DNA of 34,223 bases, from positions 1 to 34,223 of the forward strand of contig JBCDCH010000043.1 in assembly GCA_039182125.1 (NCBI GenBank). The letters are read 5' to 3'. Below, piece by piece: positions 3,258-18,867 of this stretch. Source of the stretch: Planctomycetota bacterium. GTDB lineage: Bacteria > Planctomycetota > Phycisphaerae > Tepidisphaerales > Tepidisphaeraceae. Under the pieces are notes generated by a model, which saw only the letters and a program-made list of their open reading frames with translations, searched no databases and was not told where the DNA came from. Both the position numbers and the translations under genes were made by a program. Position 1 is the first letter of the stretch. Each line of letters starts with the position of its first letter.

Positions 3258-4808
3258 CTAGGCGGCCTGTTCGATTTCGTCGCCGTAGATCACGTTCCGC
3301 CAACGTCGGGCGAGTTCTTCGCGGGCGCGCTGCTGTTCGTTCTGGCGTTGGTCGCGGGCGGCGGGGTCTTCCTGACCACCTCGGGAGTCGCTGTTGGTTT
3401 GGCTCTGCGTGTCGGTCGGCTGGGCCTGTCGGACGTTGATGCGGTCGACCTGCACACCGGCAGCTTCGAGCGATTGCTTGAGCGTGTGCAACGACTGACC
3501 CAACGCCTTAGCCGCATCTCCGCTCGGCGTGACGAACGACACTTCGGCGACACCGGCGGTCATCTTCACGCGGACCGCGACGTTGCCGAGTGATGGCGGG
3601 TCGAGGCGAATTTTCATCTCGCCACCGTTGTCTTTCACCAACGCCGAAACGCTGCGAACAACATTGGGCTCGTTGGCCGCGGTGAACTGTTCGCGGGAAA
3701 CCGGCGTGGACACGTCCGCCTTGATCGTCGCAGCGGGCTTGGGCGCGGCGTCGGCCGTCGAGAGATCCGCAGCCGCCGTGGTGTCGACGGTCACGACTTG
3801 TGGCACCGATTGAGTCGGTGCGGACCGAATTTCGGTGGTCGCCTCGGCGGCGCGGACCTGCGCGCCTGTGGGTGCGATCGGTGCTTCCAGACGAGCCGCC
3901 GGCTCTGCGGCAACCAGCTGAGCCGGCGAAACCCGATCGGTTGGTTGGGTCGGTTGGGGTTCAACAGGTCCCGCCGGCTCGGCGCTTACGGTCGACGTCG
4001 TCGGAGACTTCGGCCCGGTCCGCTGATCGACGACCGTCGGGCGTTTCGGGTCGGCATCGAGTTCGCGCTTGTTGATCGTCGCAGTCGTCAACGGCGCGGC
4101 AATAGCGGTCGCCGTGGTGAGCGCGGCGCGTACTTCCGTGACCTGGGCGGTTTCGCGAACGACCTGCGTGGCCGCACGCTGAATCGCTTCCTGGGCGGCG
4201 GCGAACTCTGCGGGCGAGATCGCCGTCGCGGCGGTCAACACGTCACCAACGGGTGCATCGGAAGCTGGGACGATCGTGTCGAGCGGCACCGTCACGACAT
4301 CGGTGTAGCCGACAGGGTTGACGTCGACCGGCACGGATGACGTCGCGAGTTCGGCGGCAGGCACGTCGCTGTCGGTAACAACCTGCACGTTGATTTCAGC
4401 GGCCGAGATCACGGGCGGATCGGCAACCGGCTTCTGCTGATCGGTCGTCGGTTCCGTGAGTTGTCGGAACTCCGCGACCCATTCGGCCACGGTGCCCTCG
4501 CGCTCGGACGAGTCGGCGGCAACGGCTGTTGCGGCGTCGGGTTGATCCTCCGCGGTCTCGCGCGGTGTCTCGTCCGACGTCGGATTGGGTGCCGTTGAAG
4601 TCCCGCCCGTTGAATCGTCAGCAGGCTGTTCGGTCTTCGCCGCGGTCAGTTTCTCGGCGAACTTCTCCCCGGTCGCCGGCTCCGACTTGTCGGACCGCCC
4701 CGGCTCAATCTCGCGGCGGACCGGAAGCGCATCATCGCCGTGCCGTGATGGCTTGGGCTTGGCCGGGGCGAAGATGTCGTTCACGGGAGACGTGGTGCGC
4801 TCGATCAT
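3258..4808 (-). CDS. fliK: FliK, flagellar hook-length control protein
   Basis: FliK is secreted during hook growth, measures hook length, and switches the export gate from hook to filament substrates. The product is 516 residues. The first 360 are low-complexity, rich in Ala, Thr, Pro and Glu, as expected of the extended ruler. The C-terminal Flg_hook domain is visible at about residues 385-470, with EMKIRLDPPSLGNVAVRVKM, a predicted beta strand (VAEVSFVTP) and the helix LGQSLHTLKQSLEAAGV. A Gln/Arg-rich hydrophilic tail follows, ending EIEQAA. Its ATG overlaps the stop of the motE-like gene by four bases (ATGA), indicating translational coupling. The N-terminal part is not recognisable by sequence alone, so the call rests on the C-terminal domain and position. 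Confidence 0.88.
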   Translation of the reverse strand: MIERTTSPVNDIFAPAKPKPSRHGDDALPVRREIEPGRSDKSEPATGEKFAEKLTAAKTEQPADDSTGGTSTAPNPTSDETPRETAEDQPDAATAVAADSSEREGTVAEWVAEFRQLTEPTTDQQKPVADPPVISAAEINVQVVTDSDVPAAELATSSVPVDVNPVGYTDVVTVPLDTIVPASDAPVGDVLTAATAISPAEFAAAQEAIQRAATQVVRETAQVTEVRAALTTATAIAAPLTTATINKRELDADPKRPTVVDQRTGPKSPTTSTVSAEPAGPVEPQPTQPTDRVSPAQLVAAEPAARLEAPIAPTGAQVRAAEATTEIRSAPTQSVPQVVTVDTTAAADLSTADAAPKPAATIKADVSTPVSREQFTAANEPNVVRSVSALVKDNGGEMKIRLDPPSLGNVAVRVKMTAGVAEVSFVTPSGDAAKALGQSLHTLKQSLEAAGVQVDRINVRQAQPTDTQSQTNSDSRGGQEDPAARDQRQNEQQRAREELARRWRNVIYGDEIEQAA

Positions 4809-5533: not shown

Positions 5534-5992
5534 TCAGGTCTCCGCCTCACGGTTGGCGAAGCTCATTTGCGTGGCCGTCTCGTCGTCGGCGACCTGCTGC
5601 TTGCGTTTGCGGTCGGCGAGCCATTGCTCGTGATCACGGTCGCGGAGCTTCTCGATCACCTTCAACCGCTTGGCGACCTCGGCCACTTCCAGTGCGACGG
5701 CGTCCGCCGAACGCTTGGCAATGGCGAGACGCTGGACCGACGCCCGGCCCACCGACGCCACGCTGTTAACGTATCGGCGATGCGTGGCCAGAACCTGCAG
5801 ATTTATCGGGCCTGTCATCTGATCGTCGCGCATCCAGCGGGCGGTCTCATCACTCTGGCGTTGGAGCTCACGCAGTTCGTTTTCGATCGCGGCAACCTGC
5901 GCTTGCGCATGGCCGAGACGTTCGAGCGCGGCGCGGTGCTCGGCTTCGCGCTGACGCAGGACGGCTTCGAGTCGAAAGACAAACCGGGCCAT
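5534..5992 (-). CDS. fliJ: FliJ, flagellar export chaperone/stalk
   Basis: FliJ is the central coiled-coil stalk of the export ATPase, comparable to the gamma subunit of F1. The 152-residue product is almost entirely helical and charged. It begins MARFVFRLEAVLRQREAEHRAA, matching the family N-terminus (F-x-F-R-L-x-x-V-L), and has long heptad-like stretches around residues 20-50 and 80-140. It lies nine bases after fliI, with a moderate SD (TGAGG) before the ATG, and 30 bp before the motE-like gene. FliJ sequences diverge strongly, so position and the N-terminal motif carry the call. Confidence 0.85.
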   Translation of the reverse strand: MARFVFRLEAVLRQREAEHRAALERLGHAQAQVAAIENELRELQRQSDETARWMRDDQMTGPINLQVLATHRRYVNSVASVGRASVQRLAIAKRSADAVALEVAEVAKRLKVIEKLRDRDHEQWLADRKRKQQVADDETATQMSFANREAET

Positions 5993-6001
5993 CGATCAAC
6001 C

Positions 6002-7375
6002 TCACTGTTGCGGCGGCGACTGTGCCTGACCTTGCTGGGCACGCATCTGCGCCGCGGCGTTCTCGATCTGGGCGTGGATCATGTCGAGCTTGCGTCGGGC
6101 GGCGGCGAAGTCATCGTGGTCGCCCTCGACTTGCCGCAGGAACTGCTGGATGGTGTCGTGGGCGGCGACGGCGAGGTCGTGCTCGGGATTTTGGCCCGAC
6201 GCATACGCGCCGACGCTGAGCAGGTCGGCCAGATCGCGGTGCATCGACTCGAGTTGCAGGATCCGCTCGGCCCGGCCGCGGTGTACCGGATCGGTCACGG
6301 CGGTGCGGACACGGCTCACCGACTGGAGGACGTCGATGGCCGGGTAGTGGCCGCGCTCGGCGAGCTTTCGGCTAAGCAGAAAATGTCCGTCGGCGATACC
6401 CTTCACGGCGTCGGCGATCGGTTCGTCGAAATCGTCGCCCTCGACCAGCACGGTGTAGAAGCCGGTGATGGTGCCGGTCTGCGTGGTGCCGGCGCGTTCG
6501 AGAATGGACGGGAGCAATGCGAACACGCTGGGCGGATAGCCACGCGTGGCGGGCGGCTCACCGGCGGCAAGGCCGATCTGCCGTTGGGCATGGGCCAAGC
6601 GCGTCAGCGAGTCCATGAGCATCAGCACGTTCTGCCCGGCATCGCGAAAACCCTCGGCCACGGCACACGCCAGCTTCGCCGCACGGACCTTGAGCAGCGG
6701 CGTGTCATCGCCGGTCGAAACGATCACGACGCTCCGCTTCAGACCTTCGGGGCCGAGCGTGTCATGAAGGAAGTCGGCGACCTCCCTGCCGCGCTCGCCG
6801 ATGAGCGCGATGACCGACACGTCGGCGTCGGTGTGCTTGGCAACATGGGCCATGAGCGTGGACTTGCCGACACCCGGACCTGCGAAAAGACCGACACGCT
6901 GACCCCGGCCGCAAGTCAGCAGCGCGTCGATCGCGCGAACACCCGTCGCAAGCGGCTTGCGAATCGGCACACGAATCAGGGGATTCAGCCGCGGTGGGTC
7001 GAGAGGCCTGGCGTCACCGGAGGGTAGCGAACCGAGTCCGTCGATCGGCTTGCCGAAGCCGTCGATGACCCGACCGAGCAGCCCTGAACCCGTGCGAACG
7101 CGCGGCGACATCTTCGTGTTGGAGACCCGATCACCCGCCGCGACGCCGGCTGTACCGGACAGCGGCATCAGCAACGTATGTCCGTCCCGAAAGCCGATCA
7201 CTTCCGCCTGCTGTAGGCCGCTGGTGGCTTCGATTTCGACGAGTTGGCCGATGGGGAGTGGCAGATGCTCGGCTTCAAGAGTCTGTCCTGCCGCCCGTGA
7301 CACGCGTCCGGTGATGCCGAGCGGAATCGCCGAGCCGAGCATGTCCAGTTGGGCGTCGGTGGGGAGAACGGGCAT
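6002..7375 (-). CDS. fliI: FliI, flagellum-specific export ATPase
   Basis: FliI forms a hexamer at the base of the export gate and hydrolyses ATP to help unfold and deliver substrates. The 457-residue length is normal. The Walker A motif GPGVGKST is at residues 166-173 and Walker B is VLMLMDSLTR. These are followed by the family signature AQRQIGLAAGEPPATRGYPPS (split around AGEPPATRGYPPSVF) and SILERAG. The preceding VRAIDALLTCGRGQRVGLFAG and the catalytic GERGREV are also present. The protein ends in a Gln-rich tail. It is packed between fliH (12 bp) and fliJ (9 bp). Type III secretion ATPases are related, but the flagellar neighbours settle the identity. Confidence 0.97.
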   Translation of the reverse strand: MPVLPTDAQLDMLGSAIPLGITGRVSRAAGQTLEAEHLPLPIGQLVEIEATSGLQQAEVIGFRDGHTLLMPLSGTAGVAAGDRVSNTKMSPRVRTGSGLLGRVIDGFGKPIDGLGSLPSGDARPLDPPRLNPLIRVPIRKPLATGVRAIDALLTCGRGQRVGLFAGPGVGKSTLMAHVAKHTDADVSVIALIGERGREVADFLHDTLGPEGLKRSVVIVSTGDDTPLLKVRAAKLACAVAEGFRDAGQNVLMLMDSLTRLAHAQRQIGLAAGEPPATRGYPPSVFALLPSILERAGTTQTGTITGFYTVLVEGDDFDEPIADAVKGIADGHFLLSRKLAERGHYPAIDVLQSVSRVRTAVTDPVHRGRAERILQLESMHRDLADLLSVGAYASGQNPEHDLAVAAHDTIQQFLRQVEGDHDDFAAARRKLDMIHAQIENAAAQMRAQQGQAQSPPQQ

Positions 7376-7387
7376 CGGATCGCTCCA

Positions 7388-8074
7388 CTATTCCGGCAGT
7401 AGTTCGGCAGCGAGGCGCTCGAGCTGGGTATCGAGAGTCGCATCGACTTCGCAGCCGACTGCGGTGATCTTGCAGCCGCCGGGAGCGATGGTGTCGTCCT
7501 CAACGATCTTGGCATGCTTCAGGTCGGGCCAGCGAAGTTCGAGGTCGAACGCGGTACCCGAGAGCAACTGTGCCTGTCCGGGGGCGACTGCGAGGCGAAC
7601 GTCGTGTGCACCGGTCGCACAACGGGCGGCAGCGGTGATGTTCCGTGCGAGCACTTCGGGATCGACCGAACCCTGGCGCCGGGTGATTTTCTCAGCAACC
7701 GCGACGGCCAGCCGAGCGACGTCCGCGGCGGCTTCGTCGGCCAATGCCTGGCGGTGTGTGTCGACGGATTCGAGCGCAGCGGAGAGCGTGGTGATGAGCT
7801 GTTGGAGTTGGGCTTGATGGCTGGCGAGCGCTTCGGCTTTCCCCTCCTCGTGACCGCGAACCTGGCCATCTTCGGTCCCCTGCTCCAGTCCCGTTGCGTA
7901 GCCGGCTTCTTGCGCCTCGTCGCGCATGGCCGCCGCTTCGGCGTCGGCCCGGGCGAGGATCGTCGCCGCTTTCTGTTTGGCCGCATCCACGATCGCCGAC
8001 GCTTGCTTCTGCACGTCTTCCATCTGGAACACGCGGGCGGTGGTCGGGACGTTGTCGGCCTTGAGCAACGGCAT
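7388..8074 (-). CDS. fliH: FliH, flagellar export ATPase regulator
   Basis: FliH dimers bind FliI and dock the ATPase to the C ring. The 228-residue product has an N-terminal alanine- and glutamate-rich helical region (about 20-130). Within it are glycine-containing repeats (GYATGLEQGTEDGQVRGHEEG) like the GxxxG repeats typical of FliH. A C-terminal globular part follows (VARLAVAVAEKITRR, EVLARNITAAARCA, APGGCKITAVGCEVDATLDTQ), matching the FliH/YscL/V-ATPase E family. It starts at an ATG six bases after the fliG stop and ends 12 bases before fliI. Confidence 0.92.
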   Translation of the reverse strand: MPLLKADNVPTTARVFQMEDVQKQASAIVDAAKQKAATILARADAEAAAMRDEAQEAGYATGLEQGTEDGQVRGHEEGKAEALASHQAQLQQLITTLSAALESVDTHRQALADEAAADVARLAVAVAEKITRRQGSVDPEVLARNITAAARCATGAHDVRLAVAPGQAQLLSGTAFDLELRWPDLKHAKIVEDDTIAPGGCKITAVGCEVDATLDTQLERLAAELLPE

Positions 8075-8080
8075 GTTCGG

Positions 8081-9094
8081 CTACACCACCATTTCCTTCT
8101 CGCCACCGCGGCCGGAGATGACGATCTCGCCAGTGTCTTCGAGGCGGCGAACGATGTCGACGATCTTCTGCTGGGCCGCTTCGACGTCGCTGACGCGCAC
8201 CGGGCCCATGTATTGCATGTCCTCCTGGATGAGCTTGGCGGCGCGGTCGGACATGTTCTTGAAGATCTTGTCCTTGAGCTCGTCGGAAGCTGTCTTGAGC
8301 GCGAGGCCGAGCGTTTCGTTGTCGACCTCCTTGAGGACGGACTGAATGCCCTTGTCGTTGACGAGTAGGATGTCCTCGAAGACGAACATGAGTCGCCGGA
8401 TGGACTCGACGAGGTCCGGGTCTTCTGCTTCGAGGCCTTCCATGATGCCCTTCTCCGTCGTGCGGTCGGCGAGGTTGAGCATCTCCGCGACGTTCTCGAC
8501 GCCGCCTGTTTTTTCAGAGGAATCAGAGACGATATCGGAGAGCCGGTGCTGCAGGCCGCGCTCGACTTCCTCGATGACCTCGGGGTTGGTCTGCTCCATG
8601 TTGGCCACGCGCTTGACGACCTCGACCTGCTTCTGCGGACCGAGGCCCACGAGCACTTCCGAGGCCTTGGCCGGCGGGAGGAACGCGAGGATCAGCGCGA
8701 TCGTCTGTGGGTGCTCTTCCTGAATGAACGTCAGGATGTTCGCGCTATCGGCCTTCTGCAGAAAACTGAACGGCGTCGTTTGCACCTGTTCAGTAACGGC
8801 GCGGATCATCTTGTCCGCTTCTTCCTGACTCAACGACTTGCTGAGCAGTTGCTTGGCGTAGTCGAGACCACCGCCGACCATGTTGTTCGCCAGCGCGAGT
8901 TGGTAGAACTCACCGAAAACATCGCGGCGTTCGCCAACGGGAATGTCGCCGAGGCTGGCGATCTCGCGGGAGACTTCCTCGACCGCGCCGGGCGGGAGGA
9001 TCTTGAGCACCTGAGCGGCGGCGTCCTGATTGAGCGTGAGCAACAGAATGGCGGCCTTGCGGGTACCGCTGAGTTGGGAAGTCGCTGTCGCCAT
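8081..9094 (-). CDS. fliG: FliG, flagellar motor switch protein
   Basis: FliG links the MS ring to the C ring and interacts with the stator to make torque. The 337-residue product shows the full three-domain layout. The N domain is KAAILLLTLNQDAAAQVLK. The middle domain has the EHPQT motif at residues 127-131 followed by IALILAFLPPAKASEVL. The C domain has the charged torque helix (LKTASDELKDKIFKNMSDRAAKL). A short C-terminal extension ends GGEKEMVV. It lies 16 bp after fliF and six before fliH. The SD before the ATG is weak. Confidence 0.98.
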   Translation of the reverse strand: MATATSQLSGTRKAAILLLTLNQDAAAQVLKILPPGAVEEVSREIASLGDIPVGERRDVFGEFYQLALANNMVGGGLDYAKQLLSKSLSQEEADKMIRAVTEQVQTTPFSFLQKADSANILTFIQEEHPQTIALILAFLPPAKASEVLVGLGPQKQVEVVKRVANMEQTNPEVIEEVERGLQHRLSDIVSDSSEKTGGVENVAEMLNLADRTTEKGIMEGLEAEDPDLVESIRRLMFVFEDILLVNDKGIQSVLKEVDNETLGLALKTASDELKDKIFKNMSDRAAKLIQEDMQYMGPVRVSDVEAAQQKIVDIVRRLEDTGEIVISGRGGEKEMVV

Positions 9095-9110: not shown

Positions 9111-10751
9111 TTAGTCCTGCACCCAGCGGCGAATCAGCGCCGCGGCAGCTTCGGGATTCTCGCCGACCAGGCTCTGCACCTGCTCGACCATCTGCTTCGT
9201 CTGCATCATCTCGGGGTCAATTTCCTGAGCGTCCATCAGGTTGTCGGATTCGCCGACCTCACCGACGACGGACTCGCCACGGAGTTGCGCGAGAGCCGAT
9301 TCGAGATCGGGCACCTCGGTCGTGATCGTGGGCGAAGCCTTACGAACCATCATGGACACCATGAACAACGAGACCACCGCGAGCAGGCCGATGACCGCTT
9401 CGCGGCCGTAGCTGGTCATCATCGTGCCGACCGACATGCCACCGGGCAGGGTCATGCCGGCGTTGAGCGAGGCATCATCCAATGACGGCGGAAGCTGGTC
9501 GGCGTAGGTTTCGACGCTGATGTCGTCGGCCGTGTCGAGCGCGACGACATTCATCAAGATACTCCGAATACGGGCGACTTCGTTTTCCTCATGCGTCGCG
9601 AGCATCTCGCCATCAGGCGTTTCGATGTCCGGGTTGCGGGCCATGAAGTCGCGCTTGATGTGGCTCAGTGGAACACGCACGACCGCACGGACAACCTTCG
9701 CTTCACCCGCGGCGGTCTCCTCGACGACGCGTTGTTCGCCAACCTTGACTTCGTTTTTGGTGTCGGCCGTCTCGGAGTCCGAGGAGTTGACGCCACCGCC
9801 ACCGGCGAGTTCCAAGCCAATGTTCGGCACCGCGCCCGGCTCACCCGCGCCTGCACCGTCCGAACTTGTCGTCGTCGTGGTGCTTTCGCTGGTGGGGACA
9901 ACGACCGTGCCGTCCTGGTCGTAGGTCACGGCCTGCTTGCTACGCTTGGTCGGATTCACCTCGGCGGTGACGCTTACGAGAATGTTCGGGATGTCGGCGA
10001 ACGTGTCGTAGATCTTGTCGGCGTAGTCCGCTTCGACCATCGCGCGACGCTCGAAGAGTTGATCGGGATCGATCGGCCCGTTGGACTGGGCAACGCGCTG
10101 GAGTCGGCCGTTGACGTTGACTTTCACGTCACCGGTGGCGAGCTCGTTGACGGCACCCGCGACGATGTTGGCCAGACCTTCGACCAATCCGCGGTCGGCT
10201 TTGACATTGCCGTCGCGGGTCCAGACGCTGACGGTCGCGCTGTTGCGTGAACGCTGACCGATGCGCGTGGAGCGGTTCAAATCGAAAACGACGTCGGCGT
10301 GGGTGATGTTGCGATCAACGAGAATGATCGACTCGAGCTTGCGGCGCTTGGCCTCGGCGAAGAACTCCTTGGTCTTGAACGCCGGATCCCAGGCGGACAT
10401 CTTCTCGACCATCTTGTCGAAGCTGTCGGCGGAGTTGCCGGGCATGGCGTTGGCGAAGCCCAGTGCGGATACGGCGGCTTCGAGTTGGTCGGCGGGGACC
10501 ATGATCCGCGAGCCATCCAACTTCATGTCGATCCCGGCACCGGTCAGTGCAGTGCGGGCGTCGGCCATCTCCTGTGGCGTCATCGCGCCGTCGAGCACCG
10601 GCTGAAACTCACCGGTCGCGGCGTAGCTGCTCCACCACATGATGGTGATCACCATGATGGCCACGAGAGCGCCGGTGAGCATTTTCTGACTGGCGGAAAG
10701 GCCGCTCAGTTGCCCTTGGATGCGTTCGAGTTGTTGGCGGATGGTGTCCAC
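9111..10751 (-). CDS. fliF: FliF, flagellar MS-ring protein
   Basis: FliF forms the membrane ring on which the flagellum is built. The 546-residue product has an N-terminal membrane segment (about residues 26-45, LVAIMVITIMWWSSY) and the ring-building modules that follow (FQPVLDGAMTPQEMADARTAL, KRRKLESIILVD, DLNRSTRIGQRSRNSATVSV). A Ser/Thr/Gly-rich periplasmic linker spans about 280-330. A second membrane segment (VIGLLAVVSLFMVSMMV) is followed by the FliG-binding tail ending ENPEAAAALIRRWVQD. It starts at a GTG with a strong AGGAGG ahead. A 104-bp gap separates it from fliE, the longest gap between flgB and fliK apart from the fliK-flgD gap, so a secondary promoter could lie there. Confidence 0.97.
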   Translation of the reverse strand: MDTIRQQLERIQGQLSGLSASQKMLTGALVAIMVITIMWWSSYAATGEFQPVLDGAMTPQEMADARTALTGAGIDMKLDGSRIMVPADQLEAAVSALGFANAMPGNSADSFDKMVEKMSAWDPAFKTKEFFAEAKRRKLESIILVDRNITHADVVFDLNRSTRIGQRSRNSATVSVWTRDGNVKADRGLVEGLANIVAGAVNELATGDVKVNVNGRLQRVAQSNGPIDPDQLFERRAMVEADYADKIYDTFADIPNILVSVTAEVNPTKRSKQAVTYDQDGTVVVPTSESTTTTTSSDGAGAGEPGAVPNIGLELAGGGGVNSSDSETADTKNEVKVGEQRVVEETAAGEAKVVRAVVRVPLSHIKRDFMARNPDIETPDGEMLATHEENEVARIRSILMNVVALDTADDISVETYADQLPPSLDDASLNAGMTLPGGMSVGTMMTSYGREAVIGLLAVVSLFMVSMMVRKASPTITTEVPDLESALAQLRGESVVGEVGESDNLMDAQEIDPEMMQTKQMVEQVQSLVGENPEAAAALIRRWVQD

Positions 10752-10855: not shown

Positions 10856-11161
10856 TCAGACGGGCATGTTACGAATTTCTTCAAAGGCGTCCATGAGTTT
10901 CTTCCGAACGGCAAGAAGCGTGTTGAAGGCGAGGTCTGATTTCTCGACGGCCAGCATGACGCCGGTCACATCGTCGGTCTGTCCGGAGGCAAGCCCCTCT
11001 ACCGCATGTTGTGCATCGCGCTGTAACTGCGCAACATCTCCCACCGTCTTTTGCAGGACTTCGGCGAAGCCGCCGTTCTGACCGGCGGAGCGATCCGGCC
11101 CGCCGACGGTGTTCGCGGCGCTTTGCAGGCCGTGGATAGATTGGTTGAGATTCTGGATCAT
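10856..11161 (-). CDS. fliE: FliE, flagellar hook-basal body protein
   Basis: FliE joins the MS ring to the proximal rod. The product is 101 residues, the usual size. The C-terminal half carries the family pattern: FAEVLQKTVGDVAQLQRDAQ, then GLASGQTDDVTGVMLAVEKSDLAF, then LLAVRKKLMDAFEEIRNMPV. The N-terminus is variable and polar, as in homologues. An SD (AGGAAGA) lies upstream of the ATG. It follows flgC by 32 bp in the conserved flgB-flgC-fliE order. Confidence 0.95.
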   Translation of the reverse strand: MIQNLNQSIHGLQSAANTVGGPDRSAGQNGGFAEVLQKTVGDVAQLQRDAQHAVEGLASGQTDDVTGVMLAVEKSDLAFNTLLAVRKKLMDAFEEIRNMPV

Positions 11162-11193: not shown

Positions 11194-11595
11194 TTAGGCA
11201 ATCAGCCGCAAGGCGGCGTTGAGCATGGCCTTGGTGGTCTCGATCATCGTGACGTTCGCCTCGTAAGCCCGGCTCGCGTCGAGCATGTTGACCGACTCGA
11301 TCGCCAAATCAACGTTGGGCATCTGGACGAAACCGTCCGAGTTGGCGTCGGGGTGGCCGGGGTCGAACACCTTGGGGAACGGCGTGGGGTCTTGCTTGAT
11401 CGCCGCGACCCGCACACCGGGGTTGCCCGCCACGTCGCGCTGGGGCTCGAACACCACGAACCGCCGGCGGTAAGGCTCGATCGTCCCGTCGGCCTGCCGG
11501 GTCGTGTTCAGGTTCGCCAGGTTGTTCGCCACGGTGTCCATGCGGACGCGCTGGGCCGTGAGCGCGCTGGCGGCGGTGTCGAGGGTGCTGATCAT
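11194..11595 (-). CDS. flgC: FlgC, proximal rod protein
   Basis: FlgC builds part of the periplasmic rod. The 133-residue product begins MISTLDTAASALTAQRVRMD and has the family signature VANNLANLNTTR, then PYRRRFVVFEP and a proline- and aspartate-rich stretch (PFPKVFDPGHPDAN). The C-terminal motif is GFVQMPNVDLAIESVNMLDA followed by SRAYEANVTMIETTKAM. The SD AAAGGAT is well placed. It is 11 bp after flgB. Confidence 0.97.
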   Translation of the reverse strand: MISTLDTAASALTAQRVRMDTVANNLANLNTTRQADGTIEPYRRRFVVFEPQRDVAGNPGVRVAAIKQDPTPFPKVFDPGHPDANSDGFVQMPNVDLAIESVNMLDASRAYEANVTMIETTKAMLNAALRLIA

Positions 11596-11606
11596 CGGTC
11601 AATCCT

Positions 11607-12008
11607 TTACTGCGGAACCTCACGGAGCGCACTGCGGAGTTGGCTGTACTGTTTTCGCAAGAGCTCGGCCAGCGCGTTGTGCTGCAGGGCGTTCTTCGCG
11701 GACTCGGTCATCAACTGCTCCATCGAACGGTTGTTGCCGTCGTGGAAGGTGATGCCACCGGTTTCGAAGGTGAGCGACTCGTCGACGCCGGACAGATCGA
11801 GCCGACCGCCACGATCGCGTTCGTCCAGCGACTTGGCCAACGATGCACGAAACGCGTTCACGTCCATGTCGCGCTGCTTGTAGCCGGGCGTTGTCGCATT
11901 GGCGACGTTCTCGGTCAGCAACGCCTGACGCAAGCCCGCGAAACGCATCGACCGCCCCACGACCGGGGCCGGCGTGCTGTTGAGGATGGTGTCGAGGAAC
12001 TGGGCCAT
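11607..12008 (-). CDS. flgB: FlgB, proximal rod protein
   Basis: FlgB is a proximal rod subunit that assembles with FlgC, FlgF and FliE. The 133-residue product has the rod motif RQALLTENVANATTPGYKQRD at about residues 27-47, a glycine- and aspartate-rich middle, and a C-terminal helix (LMTESAKNALQHNALAELLRK) typical of FlgB. The ATG has an AAGGA about eight bases ahead. It is the first structural gene of the flagellar cluster, 72 bp downstream of the NtrC-type regulator. Confidence 0.96.
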   Translation of the reverse strand: MAQFLDTILNSTPAPVVGRSMRFAGLRQALLTENVANATTPGYKQRDMDVNAFRASLAKSLDERDRGGRLDLSGVDESLTFETGGITFHDGNNRSMEQLMTESAKNALQHNALAELLRKQYSQLRSALREVPQ

Positions 12009-12080
12009 GTGATTTTCCTTTTGATCGGACGCGGGGTTGGGGCTTCGCCAGCGCGCCGGCTGACGGGCGCAGGTCTTGCG

Positions 12081-13427
12081 CTATGCGGCAAGGGCGATCT
12101 CGCCGTCCCACTCGCCGGTTTCCTTCCACTTCTTGAGTTTCATACCGAGAGTCCGCACGCCGATTCCCAGGGCGCCGGCGGTCTTGGCGCGATGGCCGTT
12201 GAACTTGTCGAGGGCCGCGAGAATGGTGCGCTTCTCGACTTCGGCCAACGGCTCGTTGTTCCACTTCATCGCCACGGGCCGGGGGCTTCCGCCGCCGATC
12301 CAGGGCTCGAGCGTTGCCGCACGAATGACGCCCGGCTCGGTCTCCAACGCAACCGCCCGCTCGAGCATGTTCTGCAACTCACGCACGTTGCCGGGCCAAT
12401 CGTGGCGTTCGAGCATCCGAACAGCGCGAGGATTGAGGTGCCGGAACGGCGTGCCGTCGCGCTTGGAGATGCGGTGCAGGAAGTGCCGGGCCAGATCGGC
12501 AATGTCGTCAGTTCGATCGCGCAGCGGCGGGACGATGATCGGCAATACGTCGAGCCGGTAGAACAGGTCCGCCCGGAACCGCCCCGCCTTGACCTCCTCC
12601 TCGAGGTCGGCGTTGCTGGTCGCGACGATGCGGACGTCGACCCGCCGGGTGACGGTGCCGCCGACCCGCTCGAAACTGCCGTCCTGTAGAAACCGCAACA
12701 GCTTGGCCTGCACGCCGGGGCTGATCTGGCTGACCTCGTCGAGCAGAACAACGCCCGCATCGGCCCGCTCAAAACGGCCGGGCAGGTGTGCTTGCGACTC
12801 GTCGCCGAACAGCTCGGCTTCGAGATGGTCGCCGGCGAGAGCCGCGCAGTTGACGGCGATCAACGGCTTGTCAGCACGATCGCCCGCCGCGTGGATGGTG
12901 CGGGCAACCACTTCCTTGCCGACGCCGCTCTCGCCGCGGATCAGGACCGTCGCGTTGGACGTGGCGACCCGTTCGATCTGTTGCTTGAGTTGTCCGGTCG
13001 CGGCGCTCTTGCCGACCAGTTGCGTGGCGGGCTCCACCGGCTTGGGCCTGGCAATCGGCGATTCGTCCAGCGTTCGCAAGGCCCGCTCGGTCATGCGACG
13101 CAGGTCATCGCCGTCGAAAGGCTTTTGCAAATAGTCCAAGGCTCCCTGCTTGATCGCGCTCACCGCCGTCGGCACCGTCGCGAAGGCGGTCATCAGGATC
13201 ACGAGCAGCTTCGGCTTCCGTGCCTTGGCCGATCGCAGCAGTTCGATCCCGGTCATGCCAGGCATTTTCAGGTCGGTGATCAGCAGGTCGATCGCGTCGG
13301 CGTCGAGTATGTCGAGGGCTTCCTGCCCGCACGCCGCGGTACGCACTTGGTGTCCATGACGTTCGAGCGTGGCGGCCGAACCGTCACGCATCAGGGCCTC
13401 GTCATCACAGATCAAGATCGTCGCCAT
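12081..13427 (-). CDS. NtrC-type response regulator lacking the GAFTGA loop
   Basis: A 448-residue, three-domain regulator. The receiver (1-115) has the acidic pair at 8-9, the phospho-acceptor Asp52 (LLITDLKMPG), Thr80 and Lys102. The AAA+ domain has Walker A GESGVGKE (164-171), Walker B VVLLDE (225-230) and the arginine-finger region (FRADLFYRLDVLPI). A Fis-type helix-turn-helix is near 405-440 (GHRAKTAGALGIGVRTLGMKL). Between ELFG (204-207) and GRFE (216-219), where sigma-54 activators carry GAFTGA, there are only eight residues (DESQAHLP), so the sigma-54-contacting loop is absent. The frame is intact there. ATG at 13427 is preferred, and an in-frame GTG at 13436 would add three residues. 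Its position heading the flagellar genes makes it the likely cluster regulator. Comparable activators without GAFTGA in other bacteria act with sigma-70-type polymerase or as repressors. Confidence 0.9.
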   Translation of the reverse strand: MATILICDDEALMRDGSAATLERHGHQVRTAACGQEALDILDADAIDLLITDLKMPGMTGIELLRSAKARKPKLLVILMTAFATVPTAVSAIKQGALDYLQKPFDGDDLRRMTERALRTLDESPIARPKPVEPATQLVGKSAATGQLKQQIERVATSNATVLIRGESGVGKEVVARTIHAAGDRADKPLIAVNCAALAGDHLEAELFGDESQAHLPGRFERADAGVVLLDEVSQISPGVQAKLLRFLQDGSFERVGGTVTRRVDVRIVATSNADLEEEVKAGRFRADLFYRLDVLPIIVPPLRDRTDDIADLARHFLHRISKRDGTPFRHLNPRAVRMLERHDWPGNVRELQNMLERAVALETEPGVIRAATLEPWIGGGSPRPVAMKWNNEPLAEVEKRTILAALDKFNGHRAKTAGALGIGVRTLGMKLKKWKETGEWDGEIALAA

Positions 13428-13532
13428 CCTTGGCACCGCTTTCCTGGCTGGAACTTCCGTTTGCGAACCGACATGGGTGTTATCGGACGACGGCGGAAGT
13501 TGCGCCAGCGAAAGCGGCAGTTTTTGCGCGGC

Positions 13533-15011
13533 TCAATCGCTGCCGGTCATGGCGTGAAGGACCCGCGCCTGATCCTTCTCGACGAACTCACCGACCAATC
13601 GCCCCCCGCGCATCACAAGAACCCGGTCGCAAAGACCCAGCAACTCCGGGAGTTCGCTGCTGACCACGAGCACGGCCACGCCGTCGCCGACGAGGTCGGC
13701 GAGGATCTGATGGATGCCGGCTTTGGCACCGATGTCGACGCCGCGAGTCGGCTCGTCCACGATCAGCAACTTCAGACCCCCCGCCGACTCACGCAGACCG
13801 AGCCACTTGGCGAGGGCGACCTTTTGCTGGTTGCCGCCCGAGAGAGCGCCAGCCGGCAGGCCGACGTCAGCGGTGCGGATGTCGAGTTGCGTGCGTGCGG
13901 CCTCGGCCCGGCGGTGCTCGGCGGCTTGCTTCACGAAGCCCGCCGCGGCGAACTCACCGAGCGTTGCGGCATTCACGTTCGTGCGAATCGGGTGTTCCAG
14001 TTGCAGCCCCTGGAGCTTGCGATCCTCCGGGACCAACGCGACCCCGGCGGCAATCGCCTCGGCCGGGTGCCGCAGGGACAATGTGTTGCCATCGACGCAA
14101 ACGCGGCCCGTTGCCGTCGGGTCCAAGCCAAAAATGGCCTGCACCGTCTCCGAACGCCCGCTACCCACCAAGCCGGCCATCCCAACGATCTCGCCAGCGC
14201 GGACGCTGAACGAGATGTCTCGCACATCGCGTGACGACAATCCGTCCACTTCGAGAATCGCGGCCCCCGGCTCGCCCCGACTCCGCTCGAACGCCGCCAC
14301 CGATCGGCCGACCATCATGCGGACGAGCTCGTCCTCGGTGGTGTCCGCCCGGTCGATGGTGCCGACGTGTCGGCCGTCGCGCAGCACGCTGATTCGATCG
14401 GCGAGCCGCATCACCTCCGGCATGCGATGGCTCACGTACACGGCGGTCAGACCTCCGTCACGCAACCGCTCGATCAGCGTCATCAGCGACTCGGCTTCGT
14501 GGTCACCGAGGCTGCTGGTCGGCTCGTCGAACACGATCACCCGTGCCCCGCTGCCGACGGCGGTCGCGATCTGCACAAGCTGAACCTGCGCCGTCGACAG
14601 CTCACGCATCGGCCGATCGACGTCGAGCCGGATGTCGATGCCGGCGAGCAACTCGGTCGCACGGGCGCGCAGTTCGCGGCGGTCGACGATCCCGGCGCGA
14701 GCCGGCAGTTGGTGCAGCGACACGTTTTCCGCGACGCTCAGGTCCGGGCAGTACGCCAGCTCCTGATGCACGATCGCGATACCCAAGTCGGCGGCGGCGG
14801 CCGGGTCGGCGATACGCACCGGTTCGCCGTCGAGCAGGATCAGTCCGCCGTCGGGTCGATGAATGCCACCGAGCACCTTGCCGAGCGTGCTCTTGCCCGC
14901 CCCGTTCTCGCCCATGAGCACATGGACCGTGCCCCGCTCGATGGTGAGCGACACATCCGCAAGCGCCTGCACGCCGCCGAAGTGCTTAGAGATGTCACGG
15001 AACTCGATCAT
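13533..15011 (-). CDS. Sugar-type ABC transporter ATP-binding protein (RbsA/MglA/XylG-like)
   Basis: A 492-residue protein with two fused nucleotide-binding domains, the form used by ribose, galactose and xylose importers. The first domain has GENGAGKST (34-42), HQELAYCPDLSVAENV, the signature LSTAQVQLVQIA and Walker B VIVFDEPTSSL. The second has the degenerate Walker A GLVGSGRSE (no lysine, normal for this subfamily), VPEDRKLQGL, the signature LSGGNQQKV and LLIVDEPTRGVDIG. No permease or binding-protein gene is in the window, so its partners are elsewhere. It overlaps the stop of the upstream glycosidase gene by four bases (ATGA), suggesting co-translation. The substrate cannot be told from the sequence. 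Confidence 0.92.
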   Translation of the reverse strand: MIEFRDISKHFGGVQALADVSLTIERGTVHVLMGENGAGKSTLGKVLGGIHRPDGGLILLDGEPVRIADPAAAADLGIAIVHQELAYCPDLSVAENVSLHQLPARAGIVDRRELRARATELLAGIDIRLDVDRPMRELSTAQVQLVQIATAVGSGARVIVFDEPTSSLGDHEAESLMTLIERLRDGGLTAVYVSHRMPEVMRLADRISVLRDGRHVGTIDRADTTEDELVRMMVGRSVAAFERSRGEPGAAILEVDGLSSRDVRDISFSVRAGEIVGMAGLVGSGRSETVQAIFGLDPTATGRVCVDGNTLSLRHPAEAIAAGVALVPEDRKLQGLQLEHPIRTNVNAATLGEFAAAGFVKQAAEHRRAEAARTQLDIRTADVGLPAGALSGGNQQKVALAKWLGLRESAGGLKLLIVDEPTRGVDIGAKAGIHQILADLVGDGVAVLVVSSELPELLGLCDRVLVMRGGRLVGEFVEKDQARVLHAMTGSD

Positions 15012-17757: not shown

Positions 17758-18867
17758 ATGCCCGCCACCACCGACTCGCCCACGGAGATCGCCGACCCGA
17801 TCAACGCTCGCATCCTCGCCGTCAGCGAAGACCAGTTGCAGGGCTTTCAAGCCGACCCGTTTGCCGACATCGCCCGACGTAGCGGCGTCGCGCTTGACGA
17901 AGTCCACACACGCCTGCGGGCCATGCTTGAGGCCGGGACAATCCGCCGCATCCGCCAAACATTGCTGGCCAACAAACTCGCCGAAGGTGCGTTGGTCGCG
18001 TGGAAGGTGCCCGAGGAGAAGCTCAACGCAGCGTTCGACTGGATGCATGCCAACGACCCGTTCAGCGGCCACGCGGTCATCCGCTCCACCGACGCTGAGA
18101 CGCCCGGCAGCAAGTACCGCCTTTGGACCACGCTCAAAGTGCCCCAGGGCAAGAGCATCGAACAGCACTGCGACATCCTCCAGCGCATCGTCGGTGCCGA
18201 GGCGTGGAAGGCGATGCCGGCGAAGAAGCTCTTCGCGTTGGGCGTCGGACACATTCGCCGGCGTTCACTGGAGATCGGTGCGATGGCGGACGAACCGAGC
18301 CAGCCGATCGACACCAAGGTACTCCCGATCGCGGATGAGCACTGGCCGATCCTCGAAGCGCTCAAACGCGAGTTGGCGATTGACGAAATCGGTCCTGACT
18401 TGTGGGCCAAGCGTGCGGCCGAGGCCGGCGTCTCGCTCGAAACGTTCGTCGACGTCTGCGGCCAGTTCGCCGAGCGTGGCATCCTCGGTCGCTTCTCGAC
18501 GTTCCTCGAGCACCACAAACGTCTTGCCACCGGCGAGCGCGTGACGAAGTTCAACGCCTTGTACCACTGGCGCGTCCCCGTCGGGCGCGAACTCGAAGCC
18601 GGCGGTGAGGTCGGCCGCTTCCACTGCATGACGCACGGCTACTGGCGCGAGGGCGGGCCGGAGTTCGCCAACGTCAACATCATGGGCGTCTCCCACGGCA
18701 CCGAAAAGGACCGCGTCCTCGCCCACAAAGCCGCCATCGACGAGCATCTGCAATCCTGCGGCATTGGCTTTGATTACACCAACGTGTTCTGGGGCGGTCG
18801 CAGCGAGATCAAGCCGAGCGAGATCAGCCCGGCCGTACACGACGGATGGCTGGCACAATACCAATAG
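17758..18867 (+). CDS. Two-module AsnC/Lrp-like protein resembling siroheme decarboxylase (AhbAB/NirDL)
   Basis: A 369-residue protein with two similar halves. Each has a winged-helix-like start followed by an AsnC-type ligand domain. In the first half, DPFADIARRSGVALDEVHTR, GTIRRIRQTLLANKL, LVAWKVPEEKL and KYRLWTTLKVP match the AhbA/NirD pattern (IRRI, KVPEE, YNLWFTL). In the second half, AERGILGRFSTFLEHHK, ALYHWRVPVG and MTHGYWRE match AhbB/NirL. Such proteins decarboxylate siroheme in the alternative heme or heme d1 routes, but many are labelled Lrp/AsnC regulators. No heme genes are nearby, so either a metabolic or a regulatory role remains open. It is divergent from the glycosidase gene across 98 bp. 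Its stop lies four bases from the convergent glucokinase stop. Confidence 0.6.
   Translation: MPATTDSPTEIADPINARILAVSEDQLQGFQADPFADIARRSGVALDEVHTRLRAMLEAGTIRRIRQTLLANKLAEGALVAWKVPEEKLNAAFDWMHANDPFSGHAVIRSTDAETPGSKYRLWTTLKVPQGKSIEQHCDILQRIVGAEAWKAMPAKKLFALGVGHIRRRSLEIGAMADEPSQPIDTKVLPIADEHWPILEALKRELAIDEIGPDLWAKRAAEAGVSLETFVDVCGQFAERGILGRFSTFLEHHKRLATGERVTKFNALYHWRVPVGRELEAGGEVGRFHCMTHGYWREGGPEFANVNIMGVSHGTEKDRVLAHKAAIDEHLQSCGIGFDYTNVFWGGRSEIKPSEISPAVHDGWLAQYQ

Follow-up and report, generated by a model that had tools for sequence, protein, structure and literature searches.

An NtrC-type regulator encoded upstream of flgB has lost the GAFTGA loop, the part of the activator that touches sigma-54, and the −24/−12 promoters of flgB and flgF are missing from the same genome, in which the palindromes that probably serve as the regulator's operators are kept at both operons. 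On balance we consider it probable that a former sigma-54 activator has been re-wired to flagellar promoters of a sigma-70-family polymerase, a reading drawn from comparative sequence analysis in which coupling to sigma-54 would have been lost on both sides. The locus lies on a contig of 34,223 bp (C43), referred to in its entirety as the window, in a draft planctomycete (Phycisphaerae) genome of 4.13 Mb and 131 contigs.

A shortened L1 loop in an otherwise intact regulator

The regulator gene (12081–13427 including the stop codon, minus strand, like all flagellar genes given below) encodes a 448-residue response regulator with receiver (13092–13418), AAA+ (PF00158; 12537–13019), lid and Fis-type HTH (PF02954; 12126–12248) parts. 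The receiver keeps the phosphorylation residues D8, D9, D52, T80 and K102. Walker A (GESGVGKE), Walker B (LLDE), the arginine-finger segment (FRxDLFYRL), the segment GNVREL and the HTH are intact as well; the linker helix that joins the receiver to the AAA+ domain has been replaced relative to relatives. In the AlphaFold2 model (mean pLDDT 86.6), the receiver, AAA+ and HTH domains are all predicted with confidence. Between ELFG (residues 205–208) and GRFE (217–220) stand the eight residues DESQAHLP (209–216; codons at 12780–12803, minus strand), a shortened L1 loop in place of the HEKGAFTGADRLRR of the orthologs, where ELFG-HEKGAFTGADRLRR-GRFE provides a loop of 14 residues. Six residues (18 nt, in frame) are thus gone, and most of the other eight are substituted in the ortholog alignment. 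A sequence-only reading of this DNA had reported the missing GAFTGA and the eight-residue DESQAHLP without a frameshift, had put the shortfall at about six residues and had described the Walker motifs, the arginine-finger segment and the Fis-type DNA-binding end as intact; ortholog comparison, domain search and alignment bear this out, its motifs being right and its residue positions one too low. No GAFTGA was found elsewhere in the protein, either in the full 448 residues or in the alignment, and the genome holds no intact second copy of the regulator, the nearest paralog being 37% identical.

Orthologs place the loss within one lineage

Downstream of the regulator, the window matches the gene order of relatives (regulator-flgB-flgC-fliE-fliF-fliG-fliH-fliI-fliJ). 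The rod/MS-ring operon opens with flgB (11607–12008; recognized by homology and synteny, with no Pfam match) and continues with flgC (11194–11595), fliE (10856–11161), fliF (9111–10751), fliG (8081–9094), fliH (7388–8074), fliI (6002–7375) and fliJ (5534–5992); fliK (3258–4808) and flgE (898–2622) lie further along. Outside the flagellar cluster, an AsnC/siroheme-decarboxylase-like protein (17758–18867, plus strand; PF17805, PF22451) is encoded beside a glucokinase-like gene.

The regulator is the syntenic ortholog of the FleR/FlrC/FlgR-like protein found upstream of flgB throughout Phycisphaerae, where orthologs share 45–60% identity, the same gene order and the same putative operator. Phylogenetic analysis places it inside its family clade (support 100/99) on a branch of 0.95, against a median of 0.18. 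Every full ortholog of this family carries GAFTGA or GSFTGA, so that the loss in the window regulator is, by this comparison, derived; it is also rare, as a GAFTGA-type loop is present in all but one of 71 class-wide ortholog entries, which include a few loci listed twice. The deletion is accordingly not conserved beside flgB in relatives, a point that the sequence-only reading had raised together with the suggestion that intact relatives would speak for a sequencing error. Intact relatives there are, but they do not refute the loss, because the derived loop state is matched by parallel changes in the promoters, as described below.

The one class-wide exception is a GAFPGA loop in a genome of another family (G052), at a locus that has no −24/−12 element before flgB, retains the operator and still has the kinase gene adjacent. 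It represents an independent, and possibly an earlier, stage of the same change. In an earlier survey of defective GAFTGA motifs, Thr/Ser-to-Pro was the preferred exchange at this position (PMC3162934). GAFTGA is also missing from NtrC-type proteins seen in Sphingopyxis, Rokuibacteriota and Labilithrix, with sequences such as ELFGAESDDGSIRVGLLEQA and ELFGDERRSGGAPGRLEQA.

RpoN and the cognate kinase are present

The genome encodes RpoN, whose presence had been put forward as a check, with region I and the RpoN box intact, as well as six other activators with intact GAFTGA loops; neither loss of RpoN nor an altered RpoN DNA-binding domain is therefore the cause. A FleS/FlgS-type histidine kinase gene lies directly upstream of the regulator in 16/16 family relatives examined, a position that is occupied in the window by an ABC-transporter ATPase (13533–15011, minus strand). 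The kinase ortholog resides unlinked on another contig, C62 (49% identity, next match 31%), with its catalytic boxes kept, which rules out kinase loss as the cause. On a further contig (C107:9640–9867), a 131-residue open frame contains a disrupted piece of an enhancer-binding protein that includes GAFTGA.

The −24/−12 promoters of flgB and flgF are lost

In family relatives, a TGGCACG-N3-TTTGAT −24/−12 element is located about 24 bp before flgB; in other families its counterpart is mostly TGGCACG-N4-TTGC. At −12, the family element reads TTTGA instead of TTGC, and it lies almost against the start codon, from which a very short or leaderless flgB mRNA would be predicted. In the window, the 72-bp gap between regulator and flgB (12009–12080, minus strand) lacks the site, which answers in the negative whether −24/−12 sites precede flgB in this genome. 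Scored with a matrix built on the published consensus, and leaving out sites that overlap the operator (later scans accept C or A at −12), the gap contains a significant −24/−12 site at 60/63 loci with an intact loop, the remaining three being borderline (p 0.06–0.09), and at 0/2 loop-defective loci (p 0.63 in the window, 0.59 in G052). The association between promoter and loop state gives a Fisher p of 0.005, a value made non-strict by the kinship of the loci and resting on two defective ones.

The same holds for the second flagellar operon: a strong −24/−12 element precedes flgF in 12/13 relatives, and none was found upstream of flgF in the window genome. A loose CGGCATG-N5-TTGA on the reverse strand of the flgF operon (index 1539), with a spacer one base too long, is possibly the remnant of a dead −24/−12 promoter. 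A strict genome-wide −24/−12 pattern occurs twice here and 8–27 times in relatives; as control counts are equally high here and in several relatives, we kept this count out of the evidence. No recognizable replacement promoter, conventional sigma-70 promoters included, was found before flgB or around the regulator, so that flgB may simply be transcribed by read-through from upstream. No motA-type sigma-28-like promoter was detected in the window.

A conserved palindrome persists at the same operons

In relatives, the stop codon of the regulator is followed directly by at least one GCGCA-N5-TGCGC palindrome, and in many cases by pairs of them about 20 bp apart. With at most one mismatch, the palindrome is present in 41 of 63 intact-loop flgB gaps and in both loop-defective ones (window and G052). 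In the window it reads GCGCAAGACCTGCGC (12067–12081, no strand assigned), 58 bp from the flgB start. Exact copies number 10 in the 4.13-Mb genome, which puts the chance of finding one in the 72-bp gap at about 2e-4, and three of them are placed in front of flagellar genes, namely at flgB, at the flgF-flgG operon, where a pair 21 bp apart is located about 370 bp upstream of flgF, and at motA. At both flgB and flgF, therefore, the palindrome is retained where the −24/−12 element has been lost. From its position, conservation, pairing and NtrC-like geometry, we infer that the palindrome is the probable operator or enhancer of this regulator, which probably still binds it.

The motA copy offers the one positive hint that the regulator may use a sigma-70-type polymerase or act as a repressor. 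A sigma-28-like element, TCAY-N17-RCCGAWR, precedes motA in 10 of 15 genomes, this one included (0.006 expected by shuffling), FliA is encoded in the genome, and the exact operator ends 15 bp upstream of this conserved promoter. No exact palindrome was found at motA in relatives, one of which has a copy with one mismatch. The CCGATAA sequences that precede the regulator, flgF and motA were considered as FliA −10 boxes, and a matching −35 was found only at motA. Additional elements were observed in these regions, namely a perfect inverted repeat GTTATCGG-N5-CCGATAAC some 250–270 bp upstream of flgF, a single CCGATAAC upstream of the regulator (13479–13486, minus strand) and CCGGTAAT upstream of motA, which are perhaps the site of another flagellar regulator.

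A model of promoter switching and its alternatives

We propose that the ancestral regulator, as in present-day relatives, would bind GCGCA-N5-TGCGC enhancers and open the flgB and flgF sigma-54 promoters through GAFTGA. In the window lineage, the L1 loop would then have been shortened by six residues and rewritten and the −24/−12 promoters of both operons lost. The operators, the DNA-binding domain and the residues for phosphorylation and ATPase activity were kept, and an operator stands beside the sigma-28-like motA promoter. The regulator, presumably still under its kinase, would now act on promoters of a sigma-70-family polymerase, with either sigma-70 or FliA. This is the most likely role because the GAFTGA-less proteins known so far work at sigma-70 promoters, activation being more likely than repression. 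The earlier proposal of control through a sigma-70-type polymerase or by repression is upheld as to uncoupling from sigma-54 at the flagellar genes, where both −24/−12 elements are gone; its choice of polymerase and of repression stays conditional. Whether an entire two-component flagellar regulon was switched from sigma-54 to another sigma, with G052 as a further example that arose independently and is perhaps at an earlier stage, is a broader proposition to which we give slightly less than an even chance.

Repression or anti-activation, by which the regulator would occupy the same operators and block or tune the flgB, flgF and motA promoters while transcription came from another source, is unlikely. 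Caulobacter NtrC, which lacks GAFTGA, both represses and activates (PMC10274813), the distances of the operators to the flgB start (58 bp) and to the motA promoter (15 bp) would suit repression too, and the search for a replacement promoter near the flgB operator came up empty. The motA operator, however, does not cover the promoter but lies upstream of the −35, the operator pair at flgF is some 370 bp upstream of that gene, and the kept ATPase motifs are easier to explain for an activator.

The pattern of sequence change bears on a second alternative, in which the pathway has been by-passed, the flagellar genes are constitutive or served by other promoters, and the regulator is heading for loss. 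Among columns otherwise invariant in 16 relatives, the window regulator is altered at 15/52 in the receiver and trailing linker (6 of the 15 being linker-helix gaps) and at 27/97 in the AAA+ domain, but at only two columns each of the lid (2/32) and the C-terminal HTH part (2/25), an uneven spread across domains (Fisher p = 0.008). Altered positions amount to 18.5% in the regulator and 14.8% in the kinase versus 7–9% in FliG, FliI and RpoN, so that relaxed constraint would fit these values and the long branch as well, in line with the many changes at conserved positions in both proteins, the unlinking of the kinase gene and the disappearance of two −24/−12 promoters. Outright degeneration is nevertheless quite improbable given the conservation of the Walker motifs, the arginine finger, the phospho-acceptor and above all the HTH, the retention of operators at two operons with a further exact one at motA, the confidently predicted domains and the preserved catalytic boxes of the kinase.

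Continued service at sigma-54 promoters, for instance in mixed hexamers with one intact activator, could draw on the RpoN and six intact activators of this genome, but there are no −24/−12 sites at flgB and flgF for it to serve, the loose, overlong-spaced sequence being all that remains at flgF, and we hold it to be very improbable. Finally, an assembly or sequencing artefact, conceivable in a draft of 131 contigs, is a negligible prospect, as the in-frame loss of exactly six residues together with substitution of most of the remaining eight makes a slip unlikely, and the matching changes at flgB and flgF lie on different contigs.

Comparison with known GAFTGA-less and flagellar regulators

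Enhancer-binding proteins without GAFTGA are known, but the route by which a strictly sigma-54-tied activator leaves that system with its targets kept is not. Here one and the same locus is available in its ancestral state (about 60 loci), in the derived state and as a point mutant, with loop, promoter and operator all readable, and the switch is testable by swapping a loop of few residues and a 16-nt promoter. Our search of open-access literature yielded no report of a GAFTGA-less flagellar case.

The window regulator shares with FleR, FlrC and FlgR, which work with the kinases FleS, FlrB and FlgS in Pseudomonas, Vibrio and Campylobacter, the character of an NtrC-type receiver-AAA+ regulator of rod genes with a cognate kinase, and the rod operon is indeed a target of those proteins (PMC7064773). 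They activate sigma-54 rod and hook promoters, however, whereas here the loop and the −24/−12 elements are gone and the kinase is unlinked; the intact Phycisphaerae orthologs likewise differ in keeping both GAFTGA and the −24/−12 site before flgB. In Caulobacter and R. capsulatus NtrC, the GAFTGA loop is deleted, the Walker motifs are functional, and the proteins are phosphorylated and act at sigma-70 promoters (PMC10274813); the window regulator resembles them in its L1 deletion within an otherwise intact AAA+ domain. Those proteins, however, serve nitrogen control and their loss is genus- or order-wide, whereas the loss described here concerns a flagellar regulator in one lineage among intact orthologs, where the changes in the promoters can be seen as well. 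TyrR, DhaR and HupR also lack GAFTGA and act at sigma-70 promoters (PMC3162934). Together with Brucella NtrX (PDB 5m7n) and VpsR (7v2b), which are without the motif too, they belong to other pathways and have different L1 sequences; the best full-length PDB match of the window regulator is the NtrX-like 5m7n. By descent, then, the regulator is of the FleR/FlrC/FlgR type, stripped of the loop and promoters that tie that type to sigma-54, and it would work in the manner of a GAFTGA-less NtrC.
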